NCBI GenBank assembly: GCA_025201365.1
Contig: JAIXMF010000077.1
Location: 1 to 45,553, forward strand
DNA length: 45,553 nucleotides
Reading direction: 5' to 3'
DNA from: Syncephalis plumigaleata
Taxonomy: Eukaryota > Zoopagomycota > Zoopagomycetes > Zoopagales > Piptocephalidaceae
In this document: positions 713-16,542 of the stretch, piece by piece
Position numbering within the stretch: position 1 is the stretch's first letter
How the letters are laid out: every line of letters starts with the position of its first letter
Program-made: the position numbers and the translations under genes
Notes under the pieces: generated by a model
The model's database searches: none
Told to the model about the DNA's origin: nothing
Seen by the model: only the letters and a program-made list of their open reading frames with translations

Positions 713-3700
713 TTATTGGGAGCCTTGAGAGAATGGACATGCAATCATGTTATTTGGACCGTTCTGACATTGAGTGCCTTTTGGACACTCCATCTTGTAT
801 AGGATGCCCGCTCCACATACGGAATAATGAGTAGCACCAACGCAGCTGCTGTGGCCATTAACGCAACGTGGGCTGGAGTCGGTAGCTGCAGGTTCAGTGG
901 TGCAACCGTCATTATTCATGTCGGTGCTTGGTAGTGTAGCTTCCTCAGTTTCACTGCACGTACAAGATACGGTAGGATCACCGGATGGTGAAGCGGTAGT
1001 ATTCGCCGTTGATGCATTACTGGCAACTTGTTGGCTATCATATGAGCTAGTGGCATTAGAAGATGAAGTCGAATTTGTACTATAGCTCATAGCAACACTG
1101 TTACTAGTGCTTGTGCAAGTGCAAGTTTTAACCTTATTAACACAGCGCTTTGATTGAGCCGAACCAGCATTGGTGTAATCGGCGGCTGCTGGTTGAGTGG
1201 CATTAACACTGGTAGAATCGGTGGCACCAGTGCTAGTGCTGTTGGAATCAGTGGCACCAGTGTTAGTGTAGTCAGCGGTACCAGTGCTAATGCTGTTGGA
1301 ATCAGTGGCACCGGTGCTTGTGTTGGTAGAATCTACGGCACCAGTGCTTGTGTAGTCAGTGGCACCAGTGCTAGTGCTAGTAGAATCGACAGCACCGGTG
1401 TTTGTGTAGTCAGCGGCACCAGTACTAGTGTTGGTGGAATCTACGGCACCAGTGCTTGTGTAGTCAGCGGCACCAGTACTAGTGTTGGTGGAATCTACGG
1501 CACCGGTGTTTGTGTAGTCAGCGGCACCAGTACTAGTGTTGGAGGAATCGACGGCACCAGTGTTAGTGTAGCCAGTGGTACCAGTGCTAGTAGAATCGAC
1601 GGCACCAGTGTTAGTGTAGTCAGCGGCACCAGTGCTAGTGCTAGTAGAATCGACGGCACCAGTGTTAGTGTAGCCAGTGGTACCAGTGCTAGTAGAATCG
1701 ACGGCACCAGTGTTAGTGTAGTCAGCGGCACCAGTGCTAGTGCTAGTAGAATCGACGGCACCAGTGTTAGTGTAGTCAGCGGCACCAGTGCTAGTGCTAG
1801 TAGAATCGACGGCACCAGTGTTAGTGTAGCCAGTGGCACCAGTGTTAGTGTAGTCAGCGGCACCAGTGCTAGTGCTAGTAGAATCGACGGCACCAGTGTT
1901 AGTGTAGCCAGTGGCACCAGTGTTAGTGTAGTCAGCGGCACCAGTGCTAGTGCTAGTAGAATCGACGGCACCAGTGTTAGTGTAGTCAGCGGCACCAGTG
2001 CTAGTGTAGTCAGTGGCACCAGTGCTAGTGCTGTTGGAATCGACGGCACCGGTGTTAGTGTAGCCAGTGGTACCAGTGCTAGTAGAATCGACGACACCAG
2101 TGTTAGTGTAGTCAGCGGCACCAGTGCTAGTGCTAGTAGAATCGACGGCACCAGTGTTAGTGTAGCCAGTGGCACCAGTGTTAGTGTAGTCAGCGGCACC
2201 AGTGCTAGTGCTAGTAGAATCGACGGCACCAGTGTTAGTGTAGCCAGTGGTACCAGTGCTAGTAGAATCGACGGCACCAGTGTTAGTGTAGCCAGTAGCG
2301 CCAGTGCTAGTGGAATCTACGGCACCGGTGTTAGTGTAATCAGTGGCACCAGTGCTAGTAGAATCGACGGCACCAGTGTTAGTGTAGTCAGCGGCACCAG
2401 TGCTAGTGCTAGTAGAATCGACGGCACCAGTGTTAGTGTAGCCAGTGGCACCAGTGTTAGTGTAGTCAGTGGCACCAGTGCTAGTGCTGGAGGAATCGAC
2501 GGCACCGGTGTTAGTGTAGTCAGTGGCACCAGTGCTAGTGCTAGTAGAATCGACGGCACCAGTGTTAGTGTAGCCAGTGGCACCAGTGTTAGTGTAGTCA
2601 GTGGCACCAGTGCTAGTGCTGTTGGAATCGACGGCACCAGTGTTAGTGTAGCCAGTGGCACCAGTGCTAGTGCTAGTAGAATCGACGGCACCAGTGTTAG
2701 TGTAGCCAGTAGCGCCAGTGCTAGTGGAATCTACGGCACCGGTGTTAGTGTAATCAGTGGCACCAGTGCTAGTAGAATCGACGGCACCAGTGTTAGTGTA
2801 GTCAGCGGCACCAGTGCTAGTGCTAGTAGAATCGACGGCACCAGTGTTAGTGTAGCCAGTGGCACCAGTGTTAGTGTAGTCAGTGGCACCAGTGCTAGTG
2901 CTGGAGGAATCGACGGCACCGGTGTTAGTGTAGTCAGTGGCACCAGTGCTAGTAGAATCGACGGCACCAGTGTTAGTGTAGTCAGTGGCACCAGTGCTAG
3001 TGCTAGTAGAATCGACGGCACCAGTGTTAGTGTAGCCAGTGGCACCAGTGTTAGTGTAGTCAGTGGCACCAGTGCTAGTGCTGTTGGAATCGACGGCACC
3101 AGTGTTAGTGTAGCCAGTGGTACCAGTGCTAGTAGAATCGACGGCACCAGTGTTAGTGTAGCCAGTAGCGCCAGTGCTAGTGGAATCTACGGCACCGGTG
3201 TTAGTGTAATCAGTGGCACCAGTGCTAGTAGAATCGACGGCACCAGTGTTAGTGTAGTCAGTGGCACCAGTGCTAGTGCTAGTAGAATCGACGGCACCAG
3301 TGTTAGTGTAGCCAGTGGCACCAGTGTTAGTGTAGTCAGTGGCACCAGTGCTAGTGCTAGTAGAATCGACGGCACCAGTGTTAGTGTAGTCAGTGGCACC
3401 AGTGCTAGTAGAATCGACGGCACCAGTGTTAGTGTAGTCAGTGGCACCAGTGCTAGTGCTGTTGGAATCGACGGCACCGGTGTTAGTGTAGCCAGTGGTA
3501 CCAGTGCTAGTAGAATCGACGGCACCAGTGTTAGTGTAGCCAGTAGCGCCAGTGCTAGTGGAATCTACGGCACCGGTGTTAGTGTAATCAGTGGCACCAG
3601 TGCTAGTAGAATCGACGGCACCAGTGTTAGTGTAGTCAGTGGCACCAGTGCTAGTGCTAGTAGAATCGACGGCACCAGTGTTAGTGTAGCCAGTGGCACC

Positions 3701-5161
3701 AGTGCTAGTAGAATCGACGGCACCAGTGTTAGTGTAGTCAGCGGCACCAGTGCTAGTGCTAGTAGAATCGACGGCACCAGTGTTAGTGTAGTCAGTGGCA
3801 CCAGTGCTAGTGCTAGTAGAATCGACGGCACCAGTGTTAGTGTAGCCAGTAGCGCCAGTGCTAGTGGAATCTACGGCACCGGTGTTAGTGTAATCAGTGG
3901 CACCAGTGCTAGTAGAATCGACGGCACCAGTGTTAGTGTAGTCAGTGGCACCAGTGCTAGTGCTAGTAGAATCGACGGCACCGGTGTTAGTGTAGCCAGT
4001 GGTACCAGTGCTAGTAGAATCGACGGCACCAGTGTTAGTGTAGTCAGCGGCACCAGTGCTAGTGCTAGTAGAATCGACGGCACCAGTGTTAGTGTAGTCA
4101 GTGGCACCAGTGCTAGTGCTAGTAGAATCGACGGCACCAGTGTTAGTGTAGTCAGTGGCACCAGTGCTAGTGCTAGTAGAATCGACGGCACCAGTGTTAG
4201 TGTAGCCAGTGGCACCAGTGTTAGTGTAGTCAGTGGCACCAGTGCTAGTGTTGGTGGAATCGACGGCACCAGTGTTGGTGTAGTCAGCGGCACCAGTACC
4301 AGTGTTGCCAGTAGCCGCGGTTTGATTTACATCAGCACCGGTACTAGTATAGTCCGTGGTCGTTGTCTGATTTACATCAGTGCCGCTGTAATCAGTGACT
4401 GGTAGTTGGGTGGTATTGGCACTAGTATTGTTAGCTGATGATATGGTACTATTGTCGGTATAATTGGCCGGTAAATCCATAGTTGCATTGTATATGGCGT
4501 ACTCAGTCGATGCCGTGCTGTCGTTATTGCTAGCATCATTACTGGAAGTATTAGTACTGTTTGCACTATTTGTTATTTTCGGAAATTCTATTGTCATTGG
4601 CGCTCTTTTAGAGAACAAATGTTTACCGAGTCCTTGGGAGCCTTTCCTCCAAGGTTCAATACTTGGGCCATTAAGAATATTGGCTACTAGCATCTCAGGA
4701 CCGGTAAAGCTGCCGCCGGTAACACCAACAATTTCCACATCGGCACAATTCATATAGAACCTGCTGTACTCGTCTGCGTCATACCATTGCAAGGCAAAAA
4801 CGACATTTCCAGCGGTAGGGAGATTGTCCGGGATTTTAACTTCATACTTGGTATCTGTAATGAAACAGTCGTCCAAAACGTCATGAATGACCGCAAACTT
4901 ATTTCCTCCATCGTACGAAAGAGCAAACTGGCAATGACGTCCTTTGCTAGCTACGCTTTTTTCAACTTCTACCGTCACACTACTGCCGGCTTTCATGGAT
5001 ACATTGGCCGGTGCTGCGGGGAAACCACCGCATAAAGAGGTAACTGGACTGTATGTGGTTTGATAGCGTGGTTCCGGTGCAGTTAGCTTTATCCCTGCAT
5101 AGGCAAGAGGTATAGTACACGCTGCCGTCAACGTAAGTGTCAATAATGCGTGAGTCTTCAT
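713..5161 (-). CDS. Secreted mucin-like repeat protein with LPMO-like head and CBM19-like tail
   Basis: A single-exon protein of 1,482 aa. Residues 1-22 are a signal peptide ending LAYA. Residues 23-150 carry a CGGF motif and a closing stretch with FYMNCADVEI. This resembles the ends of fungal copper-binding LPMO-like domains (BIM1/X325 or AA11-like), but the mature N-terminus is Gly, not the His that LPMOs need to bind copper. A dibasic KR near residue 185 could be a Kex2 site. Residues about 280-1335 are degenerate Ser/Thr/Gly repeats such as TGAVDSTSTSTGATDYTN, typical of O-glycosylated cell-wall stalks. A second KR lies near 1338. Residues 1431-1475 have the Cys spacing and the CPKGTQC motif of CBM19 chitin-binding modules. 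The likely role is a wall-bound or surface-exposed chitin-associated protein. There is no obvious GPI signal at the C-terminus. Domain names are by eye. Confidence 0.85.
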   Translation of the reverse strand: MKTHALLTLTLTAACTIPLAYAGIKLTAPEPRYQTTYSPVTSLCGGFPAAPANVSMKAGSSVTVEVEKSVASKGRHCQFALSYDGGNKFAVIHDVLDDCFITDTKYEVKIPDNLPTAGNVVFALQWYDADEYSRFYMNCADVEIVGVTGGSFTGPEMLVANILNGPSIEPWRKGSQGLGKHLFSKRAPMTIEFPKITNSANSTNTSSNDASNNDSTASTEYAIYNATMDLPANYTDNSTISSANNTSANTTQLPVTDYSGTDVNQTTTTDYTSTGADVNQTAATGNTGTGAADYTNTGAVDSTNTSTGATDYTNTGATGYTNTGAVDSTSTSTGATDYTNTGAVDSTSTSTGATDYTNTGAVDSTSTSTGAADYTNTGAVDSTSTGTTGYTNTGAVDSTSTSTGATDYTNTGAVDSTSTGATDYTNTGAVDSTSTGATGYTNTGAVDSTSTSTGATDYTNTGAVDSTSTSTGAADYTNTGAVDSTSTGATGYTNTGAVDSTSTSTGATDYTNTGAVDSTSTGATDYTNTGAVDSTSTGATGYTNTGAVDSTSTGTTGYTNTGAVDSNSTSTGATDYTNTGAVDSTSTGATDYTNTGAVDSTSTSTGATDYTNTGATGYTNTGAVDSTSTSTGATDYTNTGAVDSTSTGATDYTNTGAVDSTSTGATGYTNTGAVDSTSTGTTGYTNTGAVDSNSTSTGATDYTNTGATGYTNTGAVDSTSTSTGATDYTNTGAVDSTSTGATDYTNTGAVDSSSTSTGATDYTNTGATGYTNTGAVDSTSTSTGAADYTNTGAVDSTSTGATDYTNTGAVDSTSTGATGYTNTGAVDSTSTSTGATGYTNTGAVDSNSTSTGATDYTNTGATGYTNTGAVDSTSTSTGATDYTNTGAVDSSSTSTGATDYTNTGATGYTNTGAVDSTSTSTGAADYTNTGAVDSTSTGATDYTNTGAVDSTSTGATGYTNTGAVDSTSTGTTGYTNTGAVDSTSTSTGAADYTNTGATGYTNTGAVDSTSTSTGAADYTNTGVVDSTSTGTTGYTNTGAVDSNSTSTGATDYTSTGAADYTNTGAVDSTSTSTGAADYTNTGATGYTNTGAVDSTSTSTGAADYTNTGATGYTNTGAVDSTSTSTGAADYTNTGAVDSTSTSTGAADYTNTGAVDSTSTGTTGYTNTGAVDSTSTSTGAADYTNTGAVDSTSTGTTGYTNTGAVDSSNTSTGAADYTNTGAVDSTNTSTGAADYTSTGAVDSTNTSTGAADYTNTGAVDSTSTSTGATDYTSTGAVDSTNTSTGATDSNSISTGTADYTNTGATDSNSTSTGATDSTSVNATQPAAADYTNAGSAQSKRCVNKVKTCTCTSTSNSVAMSYSTNSTSSSNATSSYDSQQVASNASTANTTASPSGDPTVSCTCSETEEATLPSTDMNNDGCTTEPAATDSSPRCVNGHSSCVGATHYSVCGAGILYKMECPKGTQCQNGPNNMIACPFSQGSQ
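1190..4310. repeat. Coding minisatellite, about 48-bp units
   Basis: A tandem array of variant units reading, on the plus strand, like ggcaccagtgttagtgtag, with gaatcgacggcaccagtg segments. Full units of 48 bp are mixed with 36-42 bp derivatives, roughly 60-70 units in all. All unit lengths are multiples of three, so length change keeps the host frame. Blocks of several units recur nearly exactly: the segments beginning near 2295, 2705, 3165, 3540 and 3850 share the cagtagcgccagtgctagtg variant. This indicates higher-order duplication and recent unequal exchange. Copy number in the assembly could be collapsed or expanded. Confidence 0.9.
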
Positions 5162-11445: not shown

Positions 11446-12638
11446 GATGTGACAATCAAGTCAGAATAATAATTACATGCACGCTCTATTATTGGAAGCT
11501 ATCGTGTATTGTTCGTAATTCGCACGTATTTCTATGCTAAATGAGCACAATATCGGCTACTCAACTTGATTTGCCATCACTGTCCAACTAGGCAGGCATG
11601 CTTCCTATTCTTACCTATCCACTTCTTAATCGACTTCATCGAACAGCCGACTATCCTCACCACACATGCATGTAATACGCATAACAATCCGAGCATAGCA
11701 TAATGTCTAATGGTGGTGAAATGCGGGACTAAGGAGTTAAAACAAATGATGATGGAAATGAGTACTTTTATTGGCTGGGAAGAATGATGTCGAACAAATA
11801 GGTGGATGTAAACGAGCTACGTCAGTTCCTAGACTAATGATAGTTGCATTCGATAATTCAAAGCAAGTAAACACTCCCTCCTTCGGCAAATACTCATATT
11901 CCCCAGCTTGCTTGCATTGGACTGATCGATCCGACTACTTTGAAAGCAACGGATATCATTAAACACTCCTACATTGTTGTATGCTTGTATTTGTGTCATG
12001 TATTGCAGATGACGGTTGCTTTTAATTAAATGGTTGGCTATTCTAATGATTTAGCCCAGACCTCTATTCCAAAACGAAATGGCTCTAACACGTTCTGTTG
12101 AACTGATCTGTTTTACTCAAACTGCGGTTAATTGCTTAATCCTTAACCAGCAAATTGTCATCCATCTTCCTCATATGAGGTTGGTGAAACATATGGACAA
12201 AAGCCATGGTGCTGGTGCATTCCGGTTTTCTTCTTTCAAAGGTTGGCCTATCCAAATACCAGTCCTGCTACCTTTGGACAATGATGACTTCTATCACACC
12301 ACCACCAAAATAACCCCAATGCAAATGTTTCTCCTTGGGGCTAACAGGTAAAAAGAGAAATGGAAGTGGCGAGTATGGAGGAAATAGTGGATAACAACAT
12401 AGGATTGGGTTATAAGGCCCCATGAAAAGAATCTCAGATGAAGGAAATAAGAAGAGAAGGCCTTTGAGCTAAAACAATGCAATGAAATGTGTAATGCAGC
12501 GTTATAATATCATTTCATGTCGTTACAACATGTCGGCATGCGAAGTAGATGCTTAGAGCAATTACTCGTGTGGATAATGAATGACGCCACGATAGCCATC
12601 ATCATGTTTTCCATCTAAATATTTAGCACCATCTCGGC

Positions 12639-12645
12639 TATAAAT
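12639..12645 (+). promoter_or_regulatory. TATA box of the microexon gene
   Basis: A perfect TATAAAT at 12639-12645, 128 nt upstream of the ATG at 12773. The sequence between is strongly pyrimidine-rich (repeated ctctacta and ctatac words), as in leaders of highly expressed fungal genes. This supports transcription of the gene starting around 12670. Confidence 0.65.
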
Positions 12646-12772
12646 CAAGCACTTTTTAGCACACTCACCTTGCCATCTTCATACCCACTCTTCTGCTATA
12701 CTCTCTACTATACTTTCTACTCTCGTTCTAGTCAGCTTATCTGTCTATCTACCCCTCTAGGCCAATATCAAC

Positions 12773-15700
12773 ATGAAGTTCTCTGCCATTATCGCTATTG
12801 CCGTCGCCGTCGTCGCTGTCGCCAGCCTGGTCGCCGCTGAAGTCAAGCCCACATTGATTCGTCGTGGTATGTCTGGCCGTGACCCTATCAATTGATGTAC
12901 TAATCGTAGCCTATTGTTTCATTGTCTACCGATGATTACCGACAGCTCGTAAGTTCATGTATATTAAATGGCTGTTTTGACATGCTAATCACATCATTAT
13001 GTTTATTCTCCCTATCAATTTGTTAGCTCAAGGTAATAATCTATCTTATTGACCATAACAAGTACTATACTAATCGTAATATAAATCAAATCATGTGTAA
13101 TGTCATTTCTAAGAATCTGTAAGTCATCATTCTGCTTGCAGTGTAAAGTGTACTAATCAAAATATGGCACACCAATCTATACGTTGTGTGTGATAGGGCG
13201 TAAGTGAGCAGTCCAATTATTAGAGGGTATGTTGTACTAATTATGATACGTCATATATTGTGTATAACAGCCTGTAAGTTATTATTCTATTTGTAATCTA
13301 TGGTATACTAACCATAATATAACACATGATCCACGTATGCTTGTGCATAAATAGATCGTAAGTTAACACTGTTATGGCTGTAATGCGTGAAATATTAACC
13401 GTAATATGACTCATTATCCACGTATACTCATCTATAATAGAGTGTAAGCTACCATTCTGGTTGTAACCTATGAGGTACTAATTGCATATGGCCTTCGATT
13501 CACCCTATGCTCGTGTATAAATAGAGCGTAAGTTAACACTGCTATTGTTGTAATGCGTGAAATATTAACCGTAAATGACGCTCGATCCACGTACGCTTAT
13601 TTATAATAGACTGTAAGTTACCATTCTGATATAACTTATGAGGGACTAATCACATATGATTGTATATACACAGCCTGTAAGTTGATACTATTATTGTAGC
13701 CCATGTGGTGCTAATCACATACGACATTCGGTCCACGTATGATTATCTATAGCAACCTGTAAGTTAGCATTATTATTGTAACCCTGAGGTACTAATTACA
13801 TATGCCCTTCGGTCCACGTATGATTACCTATAGCATCCAGTAAGTTAACATTATTATTGTAACCCTGAGGTACTAATTACATATGCTCGTGTATAACAGA
13901 CTGTATGTTACCATTCTAGCCGGAATGAATAAGTACTAACTCCATATGCTTGCGTATAACAGATTGTAAGTTACCATTCTAGCCGGAATGGATGAGTACT
14001 AATTGCATTATGGGCATGCAATCGACGCATGTGCTTGTATATCAGACTGTAAGTTGTCACTTTGTCTGCAATGAACGAGGTACTAACCATGATATGACAC
14101 ACAATTAACATATGTCTGTGTATGATAGCCCGTAAGTTATCATTCTGACTAAATGTATGGCATGCTAATTACGATATGTCACATGATCCACGTATCTTTT
14201 TGAATTATAGGAGGTAAGTAATCATCCTGACTGCAGTGAATGAATGTACTAACTGTAACGTGGCACACAATCCGCGTATGCTTGCACCTGGTAGGAGGTA
14301 AGTTAACACTTCGATTACAAACTATGGTATACTAATCACGCTATGGCACTCGATAGGCAGTAAGTTATTAGTCTGATGGCAATATGCGCTGTACTAATCA
14401 CGCTATGACATACGATCCACTTCTGTTCCCGTATGATAGCTTGTAAGTTACCTTTCCAATCCTCAACTACGCTGTACTAATCATCCTATGGCACATGATT
14501 CTGATATACTTGTGTATGATAGAGAGTAAGTCATCATTCTGTATGAAATGTATGGATGCACTAATCATGGTATGGCATATGATTCACTTCTGTTCCTGTA
14601 TGATAGCTTGTAAGTCAATGTTCCAGTCATAAACTATGCTTTTACTAATCATGACATGGCACGTTCGCATACGTTCGTATGTAATAGCAAGTAAGCCATT
14701 ATGCTGGTTATACACAATGATGTATTAATTATGACATGTGACACACGATCCACGTATGTATGGATACAATAGGCCGTAAGTAATCATTCCCATTGTTGTC
14801 TACGGTGTATTAACTACGATACGACAATCGATCTGCATATGTTTTTAACTAATAGGAGGTAAGTGGAAGATGCTTACCATTGTCTAAGGTACTAACAGCA
14901 ACACGATGCATGATTCACGTATGCTTGTGTAAATAGAAGGTAAGCCATCATTTGGACTGCAACATATGGATGTACTAATTGTAGTATGGCGCACAATCAC
15001 CGTATGTTTATTTGTGGCAGGAGGTAAGTCATCATTCCAACGATAATGCATGGCGTACTAATTACAGTATGGCATGCAATCCACGTATGCTTGGATATAA
15101 TAGGCCGTAAGCTACCATTCTGATTGCAATGGATGGATGTACTAATTATGATATCGCACATGGTCCACCTATGTTTTCGTATAATAGAAAGTAAGTTCTC
15201 ATACTCTTTACTATAACGAATGGATGCACTAATGACAGTATGGCATGCAACCAATCTATGCTTATGTATGATAGGAGGTAAGTCAATATTCTAATTGTAA
15301 TATATGGATGTACTAATGACAACATGGTGCACGATCCACATATGTTTGTGCATAACAGGCTGTAAGTTGATGTCTCAATGATAATGGATGGATGTACTAA
15401 TGACAATCTGGCACACCATTCGCGTATACTCGTTCATCGTAGAACGTAAGTGAGCATCTCGATTGAAGTGTATGTGATACTAATCGTGATATGTGACATG
15501 CAATCCACGTATGCTTTGTGACTGATAGGAGGTATGTTAACACTTTAATCATCGTGTATGAGATACTAACGAGAATATGACACACCACTCATGCATGCTT
15601 GTATACAACAGCGGGTGAGTTGTCATTCTGACGATAATGTGCCGTGTACTAACTGTGTGTGCGATGCATATTTGTGTATATCAGGCGGTAAGCAATCATT

Positions 15701-15853
15701 TCCCGATTGAAAACTACGGCATACTAATCACAGTATGACACATGATCCGTGTATACTTGTGTACAATAGCAAAAGGTAAGCTATCATTCCAATTGCGATA
15801 TAAATGTACTAATCACAGTATGGCATGCCCTATTTTTACAGAATCAGCCCTAA
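12773..15853 (+). CDS. Secreted peptide encoded by about 38 exons, 31 of them single codons
   Basis: Unrecognised protein of 75 aa. Exon 1 (12773-12866) encodes a hydrophobic signal peptide and propeptide ending LIRR, a Kex2-type site. The rest is read from microexons between AG and GTAAGT-type donors. First exon base and residues: 12946 with 13027 and 13114 give A,P,Q,E,S (3, 6 and 5 nt). Phase-0 exons follow: 13197 G; 13271 P; 13355 I; 13441 S; 13525 S; 13610 T; 13674 P; 13753 QP; 13834 HP; 13900 T; 13963 I; 14046 T; 14129 P; 14211 E; 14295 E; 14357 A; 14440 L; 14523 R; 14607 L; 14688 Q; 14773 A; 14856 E; 14937 K; 15021 E; 15104 A; 15188 K; 15275 E; 15359 A; 15443 N; 15529 E; 15612 R; 15685 A; 15770 QK; 15842 N,Q,P, then stop TAA at 15851-15853. 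The 228-nt CDS is spread over 3.1 kb. No in-frame stop occurs earlier. The mature part is Pro-rich, then helix-like. Confidence 0.85.
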
Positions 15854-15907
15854 GCAGTAAGTAATAATCCAAATGATCATACTCATACTAATCCATTATG
15901 ATTACAG
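12867..15907 (+). repeat. Tandem array of homologous introns (intron-plus-codon units, about 83 bp)
   Basis: Thirty-eight introns of 51-84 nt, most 78-83 nt. Each runs from a GTAAGT, GTAAGC, GTATGT or GTGAGT donor (GTAATA once) through a branch site close to TACTAAT about 35-42 nt later, to TAG or CAG. Similarity is not limited to splice signals: the interval after the branch site repeats a word close to gatccacgtatgcttgtgta, and the donor side repeats gttaccattctg-like words. Introns 7 and 9 share a nearly identical 5' 45 nt, and introns 12/13 and 14/15 also share long identical starts. Introns 20 and 22 share their 3' halves and both precede a CTT exon. The array therefore looks like tandem duplication of one unit, sometimes two units at a time. 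Confidence 0.85.
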
Positions 15908-16150
15908 AACAAGACAAGGACATCATCAAGTAGATATTATAGGTATTCAAGTCAAGAATGGATTGGTACAACAAGACCCTCAATTAGTGTCCACGCTATT
16001 CAAGTCATTATTCCTTGGTACAACAACAAGTATATCTACAAGATCATCATTCGATCATTTATTGAATAAATATGTCCTTTCCTGACCATTACATCCGTAA
16101 TTAGTGATCAAGCATATCAATCGTTTAGTACCTTCATTATATTTGACAGG
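15857..16150 (+). other. Last intron and 3' exon of the microexon gene (probable 3' UTR)
   Basis: A donor GTAAGT at 15857 and an acceptor at 15907 define a 51-nt intron, so a final exon would start at 15908. If exon 38 is used as read, the TAA at 15851 makes this exon untranslated; AATAAA at 16064-16069 would serve polyadenylation. However, 15908 onward is open in two frames for about 58 codons. Joining exon 37 through a 2-nt exon (15855-15856) would continue to a TGA at 16083-16085. Joining exon 37 directly would continue to a TAA at 16065-16067. Transcript data would decide. The untranslated reading is preferred because the acceptor at 15841 has the best pyrimidine tract. Confidence 0.5.
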
Positions 16151-16542
16151 TCATTACATTATTTATACACATCGTCAGATTGATGGTACAGCTACACTAG
16201 CATAATAATAATAATAATAATAGCAATGCGATAATGGTGTTAACAATAGTGCAAATCTATTCATTAATAAACGGCAAAAGTTAAAGACTAACATTGTTAA
16301 TTGGTTGGAAAAGTCCTGTAATCTCGTTTAAATCCGAATTAATCCAATCCGCTCTCTCTCTCTCATTCCTTGCTCGTCATCAACGACAGGGTCGGAAATA
16401 GTATGCGATGAGAGTGACGCGATAATCACACAGACGCATTTACATTAATAAGCTAGTGCTTGTCGCTTTTTTCCCACTCTCTCTCCTCTCTCATTGCTTT
16501 GATCTTGGTTTTCCTTCTTTCTTCTCAATACTAATAGCAGCT
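16086..16542. other. Intergenic spacer
   Basis: Holds the second copy of the 43-bp direct repeat, preceded by an (ATA)n run, and the pyrimidine-rich leader of the thiolase gene (ctctctctctc near 16350 and 16480). No coding region seen. Confidence 0.5.
16213..16255 (+). repeat. Direct repeat copy B, 43 bp
   Basis: Partner of 10867-10909, with 41 of 43 positions identical. The copy sits in an extended ATA run between the microexon gene and the thiolase gene. Confidence 0.8.

Follow-up and report, generated by a model that had tools for sequence, protein, structure and literature searches.

Schistosome micro-exon genes (MEGs), whose exons mostly measure 6-36 nt, and aphid bicycle genes, which have larger exons than those considered here and encode CYC motifs, are the closest described counterparts of the fungal gene family presented below. 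The available part of the MEG literature describes secreted, fast-evolving genes whose coding region consists mostly of very small symmetrical exons (PMC4350168). Bicycle genes encode putative secreted effectors and have many small exons that share a phase; the accessible sections of their description give about 17 exons on average, mostly of phase 2, and over 100 microexons for megacycle (PMC9168663). Shorter exons still are on record. For instance, from the portions of the sources at hand, a 3-bp exon of Drosophila homothorax is spliced (PMC7392893), and for the 1-nt exon of Arabidopsis APC11 intron definition, with a one-after-another removal of the surrounding introns, has been proposed (PMC4674806). 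Introners, or introner-like elements, form families of near-identical spliceosomal introns in ascomycete fungi among other organisms, as stated in the part of the source available (PMC9860276). The initial annotation of the present locus knew of no gene built mainly from one-codon exons. A literature search likewise showed no gene family of this kind among the records listed, which in several cases were the 8-20 best out of as many as 533, with few subscription journals and with preprints excluded.

The window, the whole stretch of DNA analysed here, covers 45,553 nt from the fungus Syncephalis plumigaleata. At 12773..15853 of its forward strand a run of single-codon exons had been noted, and sequence reading together with a donor scan of 12500-16500 yields 38 in-frame coding exons that would encode a 75-residue pre-peptide. 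Exons 2-38 (12946-15856) bear out the earlier description: 31 of the 37 are exactly 3 nt long, four have 6 nt, one has 5 nt and one has 15 nt. Exons 1-38 amount to 231 bases (225 coding, 3 of the stop and 3 of UTR) within 3084, and 137 of these 231 nucleotides sit in exons of at most 15 nt. Judged from sequence, it very likely encodes a secreted peptide and belongs to a large fungal family whose genes devote almost one exon to each codon of the mature peptide.

By structure, the family consists of micro-exon genes in a fungus, with the exons reduced as a rule to a single codon. As in the schistosome genes, in the part of their description available (PMC4350168), the coding region consists mostly of very small symmetrical exons. 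It differs from them in belonging to a fungus, in having 3-nt exons as the rule, in drawing its introns from a single sequence family and in possessing intronless sister genes; the two are likened by structure. The resemblance to bicycle genes is equally structural; here the exons are of 3 nt and phase 0 and the recurring peptide motif is C..CC..C. Whereas the ultra-short exons of APC11 and homothorax stand singly, 30 such exons follow in a row in the window gene.

The gene begins downstream of a TATA-type promoter element, CTATAAAT, at 12638..12645 (+), which was read by eye from an alignment; its letters are identical in 10 of 12 microexon genes (the window gene counted). Exon 1 (12773..12866, 94 nt) encodes a hydrophobic leader, signal-like as judged by eye, that closes with the dibasic site ..PTLIRR, and it ends in phase 1 at 12866 with the donor GTATGT. 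Exon 2 (CTC, 12946..12948), exon 3 (CTCAAG, 13027..13032, with the weak donor GTAATA) and exon 4 (AATCT, 13114..13118, 5 nt behind an AAG acceptor) were placed by frame-aware models. Exon 4 sets phase 0, and 17 of the 20 other loci compared likewise show, as parsed, an AAG acceptor ahead of a 5- or 2-nt exon. Among exons 5-37 (13197..15775), 30 have a length of 3 nt and the other three a length of 6 nt (CAACCT at 13753-13758, CATCCA at 13834-13839 and CAAAAG at 15770-15775). As the initial annotation had it, all of them are in phase 0 and the first stop appears only in exon 38 (AATCAGCCCTAAGCA, 15842..15856), as TAA at 15851-15853. For the start of this exon the first AG after the branch was adopted, while the frame-aware model picks a second acceptor, from which the exon would start at 15848 (..QKP); the TAAGC[AG] ahead of its donor recurs in paralogs. 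A terminal 3'UTR exon (AACAAGACAAGGACATCATCAAG.., 15908..16070, AATAAA at 16065-16070) has similar sequence in paralogs and, like exon 38, takes its coordinates from direct sequence reading. The predicted product, MKFSAIIAIAVAVVAVASLVAAEVKPTLIRR-APQESGPISSTPQPHPTITPEEALRLQAEKEAKEANERAQKNQP, contains in order a putative signal peptide, a dibasic site, the Pro-rich stretch and TPEE-capped helix that had been foreseen, and the stop. No Pfam family was found in a scan of this peptide, nor was one above the cut-off for seven family members.

In a frame-blind scan, the locus stands out from the rest of the window. It holds 36 introns joined by exons of at most 15 nt, against 3 on the entire reverse strand, 2 on the forward strand downstream and 7 on the forward strand upstream, a minisatellite included. 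Frame-blind chains miss exons 3 and 4 because of the GTAATA donor and the AAG acceptor, and place a 56-nt exon in that region instead; the frame-aware model recovers both. On the reverse strand, at 713-5161, an open frame of 1482 aa with a signal-like start and a Cys-rich C-terminal part contains a long Thr/Ser/Gly repeat (1215-4305), which lies on a minisatellite of 24-102 nt and is open on both strands. This frame matches no Pfam family.

The arrangement recurs throughout the organism's own 32.6-Mb assembly. With the 31 residues of exon 1 as the query, 150 scored matches were obtained from 161 candidates. The unit pattern TACTAAT-N20..50-AG-N3-GTAAG occurs 1184 times genome-wide (593 + 591), compared to 51 (27 + 24) for the reversed-pattern control, while the corresponding AG-N4 and AG-N2 versions give 50 (23 + 27; control 70, 36 + 34) and 75 (47 + 28; control 65, 33 + 32), respectively. 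Units with N3 thus exceed those with N2 or N4 by 16-24 fold. The strict pattern fits 213 of the 488 three-nt exons of the gene models, and by extrapolation the assembly, in which haplotypes are uncollapsed, may hold some 2,600 one-codon exons. Collinear DNA is found on C329, with exon 1 at 653023 and a 99% identical GH16 gene at 676247, and the window contig (C359) is therefore probably the other haplotype. Four matches to chitin synthase (PF01644), a mainly fungal family, point to a fungus. Elsewhere in the assembly, the region of C223 near 612-618 kb resembles another copy of the locus of the largest gene model (L022), and on C63, C85, C318 and C362 one 40-base sequence forms five pairs about 6.49 kb apart, resembling the terminal repeats of a retroelement.

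When every interval was taken from the first YAG after a branch to the next donor in 21 arrays, among which three nearly duplicate others, 404 of 481 intervals had 3 nt and 472 were multiples of 3. Frame-blind chains over 29 non-redundant genes, from which 12 redundant members of 41 loci had been removed before counting, gave 3 nt for 581 of 701 internal exons. Among the exons of at most 24 nt, 664 of 694 were multiples of 3; 27 of the remaining 30 had 2 or 5 nt, and 24 of these 27, as counted in the frame-blind models, shift the phase from 1 to 0. Seven frame-blind exons exceed 24 nt, including one in the window gene, and look like skipped weak sites. A final model, in which GC donors were allowed, turned 34 loci into 32 gene models, 22 of them complete and 20 of these non-redundant, in which 455 of the 543 internal coding exons have 3 nt. 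The models of L014 and L039 are doubtful, as are some partial ones. As this model forbids early stops and rewards a TAAGC ending, its open frames are no independent test of frame.

Signatures of translation are apparent as well. Not one of the 581 frame-blind three-nt exons is a stop codon, where 15.1 would be expected from positional base frequencies (P=2e-7). Third-base usage follows the genetic code: over 541 exons, purines occupy the third position in 21 of 216 codons of the fourfold boxes versus 121 of 268 in the AA/CA/GA/TG/AT boxes (P=1e-18), with 2 of 31 in the TT/TA boxes and 12 of 26 in AG. Leucine microexons are mostly CTY, and purines persist where K, Q, E, W or M require them. The share of fourfold purines in microexon codons, 7.8% (14/180), lies close to that of the leader (7.0%, 38/542), compared to 19.7% (65/330) in the mature parts of intronless paralogs and 49.8% (621/1247) in ordinary open reading frames of the window. 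The counts of N3 against N2 and N4 and against their controls, the absence of stops and the third-base pattern speak against a single giant intron, recursive splicing in which the 3 nt are lost, and a chance array, all of which were rejected. Very probably, to judge from these signatures, the exons of the family are spliced and translated.

The introns between exons 5 and 37 belong to a family with a common 81-nt consensus. Over 424 family introns, donor and branch letters are strongly conserved, in line with the GTAAGT-type donors and TACTAAY-like branch sites described at the outset. Such uniformity would suit a non-coding array, that is, one long intron grown by tandem duplication with a 3-nt spacer copied along, and pairs of introns with at least 80% likeness show a roughly 3-4-fold enrichment at distances of up to six units. 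The spacers, however, are not free of coding constraint, the hallmark of a non-coding tandem repeat in one intron: they are diverse, lack stops, and track code degeneracy and the codon bias of the leader. Moreover, those lengths that are not 3 nt are mostly 6, 9, 12 or 15, and some junctions recur as continuous DNA in intronless paralogs, which makes a non-coding array extremely improbable. Adjacent introns are on average no more alike than distant ones (0.683 versus 0.682; 0.676 for introns of other genes), so simple duplication from neighbor to neighbor is not visible. A conserved RNA fold was sought in 30 sampled introns and none was found (mean z +0.4).

Several of the inferred splice junctions are present as continuous DNA in intronless sister genes. 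Fetching 45 short loci for a longer-open exon-1 frame led to 24 being taken as intronless with a continuous mature part, a set that contains several near-identical pairs and one wrong entry (L044, where a second start with an intron donor was used). Most of them carry a 3'UTR resembling that of the microexon genes. In L053, L058, L059, L067, L072 and L076, TAAGCA is joined to A[AG]CAAGAC, the predicted last-intron junction, although in three of these six genes it lies behind an earlier stop. L060 contains CGTCGTGCTCCTCAAGA uninterrupted, the counterpart of CGTCGTG|CTC|CTCAAG|A in the window gene, and so carries the junction of exon 2 as continuous DNA. Furthermore, the intronless L069 and L082 read RRAVVERR, while the alanine was absent from the initial models of L033, L034, L036 and L038; a missing CTG exon was therefore predicted and then found. 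It lies between GATAG and the GC donor GCAAGT and was reported in five of six loci (L033, L034, L036, L038 and L020); for the sixth, L073, no match was reported, yet the same letters are present in its sequence. Counting repeated words, 55 of 2711 15-mers that span at least two inferred junctions are continuous in intronless paralogs (12 genes), versus 19 of 54492 when exon order was shuffled. The 12 commonest of these 15-mers, those listed, all come from the end of exon 1 together with the few exons after it, and the middle exons of the window gene have no direct 15-mer junction match in intronless paralogs. In a tblastn search of the organism's own genome, 13 predicted mature peptides joined with X gave no candidates, a blank answer that is itself uninformative.

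Among seven intronless genes whose upstream DNA was compared, four have CTATAAAT and a fifth has a variant; L090 and L094 have further upstream DNA in common with microexon genes, while L088 and L091 align poorly. At least some intronless sisters are therefore not simply scattered cDNA copies. Intronless copies of APC11, in the part of their description available, provide a parallel (PMC8831610). Introner-like insertion is a possible origin of the introns, and such elements are known in fungi from the available part of one report (PMC4457414). Unlike introners, which insert across many genes, the introns described here belong, among the matches listed, to one gene family at one-codon spacing: for two intron patterns with 245 and 1184 matches, the first 100 listed in each case fall, by eye, almost entirely in this family. 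That introner-like elements invaded intronless secreted-peptide genes whose products are now decaying would agree with the existence of intronless sisters, some with the same promoter. The decay fits badly with the lack of stops among the three-nt exons and with the retention of a cysteine framework, and this scenario is very improbable. Two intronless members of the leader family, L044 and L046, have long Gln/Asn/Lys-rich helical mature parts with a common FLxWQxSHSxIWxQQAxEKL and match no Pfam family above the cut-off.

The predicted peptides combine a constant leader with a divergent mature part, an arrangement reminiscent of conotoxins and many fungal secreted peptides. Among 26 mature peptides (the 32 models minus six redundant or doubtful ones), 10 share a C..CC..C framework, compared to a mean of 0.58 and a maximum of 5 in 2000 shuffles, the pattern having been picked after inspection of the peptides. 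This framework also occurs in the intronless pair L053/L065. From their sequence, the members with C..CC..C would be small two-disulfide peptides, whereas the window peptide is predicted to be of a linear, helix-prone type. The largest model, L022 on C58, uses 69 coding exons for 118 residues, and its exons 40-68 form a Pro/Arg-rich tail of mixed 3- and 6-nt exons unlike other family members. In L010, L024 and L031, GC-AG introns lie within the microexon arrays and their GC donors add one tryptophan codon each; in L031 the letters TGG stand directly before GCAAGT. Exon 1 is frameshifted in L009 and L018 and odd-sized in L007; L009 and L018 have near-identical intact copies and are either decaying alleles or sequence errors.

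Once the phase has switched, small exons are almost always phase-0 multiples of 3, such that any subset of them would stay in frame. The main output of each locus could then be a library of in-frame peptides generated by free skipping of single-codon exons, as proposed likewise for schistosome MEGs in the part of the source available (PMC4350168). Such skipping would break the cysteine framework that 10 of the 26 peptides keep, and the strong conservation of donor and branch letters across the 424 introns also speaks against it. So does the codon CAG, which is absent among the frame-blind three-nt exons (0 versus 5.7 expected), as would be expected if a codon must avoid mimicking a second acceptor, and which suggests selection for exact splicing; avoidance of AAG (4, next to 29 AAA) is unclear given an expectation of about 6. 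A peptide library as the main output is thus unlikely. The initial annotation regarded the locus as a working secreted-peptide gene, and this is supported by the family-wide keeping of frame, the absence of stops, the code-dependent third bases, the common cysteine framework and the intronless paralogs that contain some of the inferred junctions; that the gene works is what we infer.

Within 3 nt of exon there should be no room for acceptor and donor to be occupied simultaneously. As both splice sites can hardly be bound together, the introns must leave one after another, most likely by intron definition. Starting with transcription from the gene's own TATA promoter, the spliceosome would recognize introns of about 80 nt through a strong donor and a TACTAAY-type branch. 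Removal would most simply run from 5' to 3', with every ligation extending the message by a single codon and uncovering the donor that follows, and the growing exon 1 would supply that donor with an exon of normal size after every step. This order is inferred, and the 9-nt exon of potato, where the downstream intron leaves first according to the available portion of the source, argues against a strict 5' to 3' course (PMC4674806). The product, a constant leader of putative signal peptide and dibasic RR followed by a variable mature peptide, would be secreted and cleaved after RR by a Kex2-like protease. The released peptide would act outside the cell, either as a C..CC..C cystine peptide or, for the window gene, as a linear helix.

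Since nearly every unit consists of an intron and a phase-0 codon, duplication, loss or exchange of units shifts whole residues without a frameshift, and such editing would let the peptides diversify fast. Between the window gene and its own allele on C329, there are 0 differences in 231 exonic and 65 in 2909 intronic positions (P=0.013). When five near-identical pairs are pooled, microexons do not clearly change more slowly than introns (5/442 versus 135/8683 differences), a comparison that uses a first parse in which the window gene has about 45 intronic bases counted as exonic. Over four diverged pairs, microexons differ more than introns (e.g. 31/53 versus 290/1265). The flanking codons match in about a third of 101 intron pairs that are at least 90% alike. 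Among 89 pairs with at least 90% likeness on either side of a codon, the codon itself is identical in 49%; change or exchange thus affects codons at a faster pace than introns. Peptides that are secreted, processed at dibasic sites and diversifying fast appear to be what these genes make. A bolder reading, in which codon equals exon, more than 2000 sequentially spliced, heritable units edit secreted cystine and helical peptides residue by residue through their duplication, loss and exchange, and partial skipping may add a peptide library to each gene, is offered tentatively, with somewhat less than even confidence.

Taken together, the new feature is that exons as a rule hold a single codon, some thousands of times by extrapolation, in a fungus and alongside intronless sisters. 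Ordinary gene finders and read aligners would fail to detect genes of one-codon exons, and comparable families may therefore have gone unnoticed elsewhere. Whether the arrangement arose by intron gain or by loss through cDNA can be tested with the help of the intronless sisters. This family would provide a natural system for the handling of splice sites three bases apart, dozens in succession, and would set a practical limit on how finely a still-expressed eukaryotic gene can be split.
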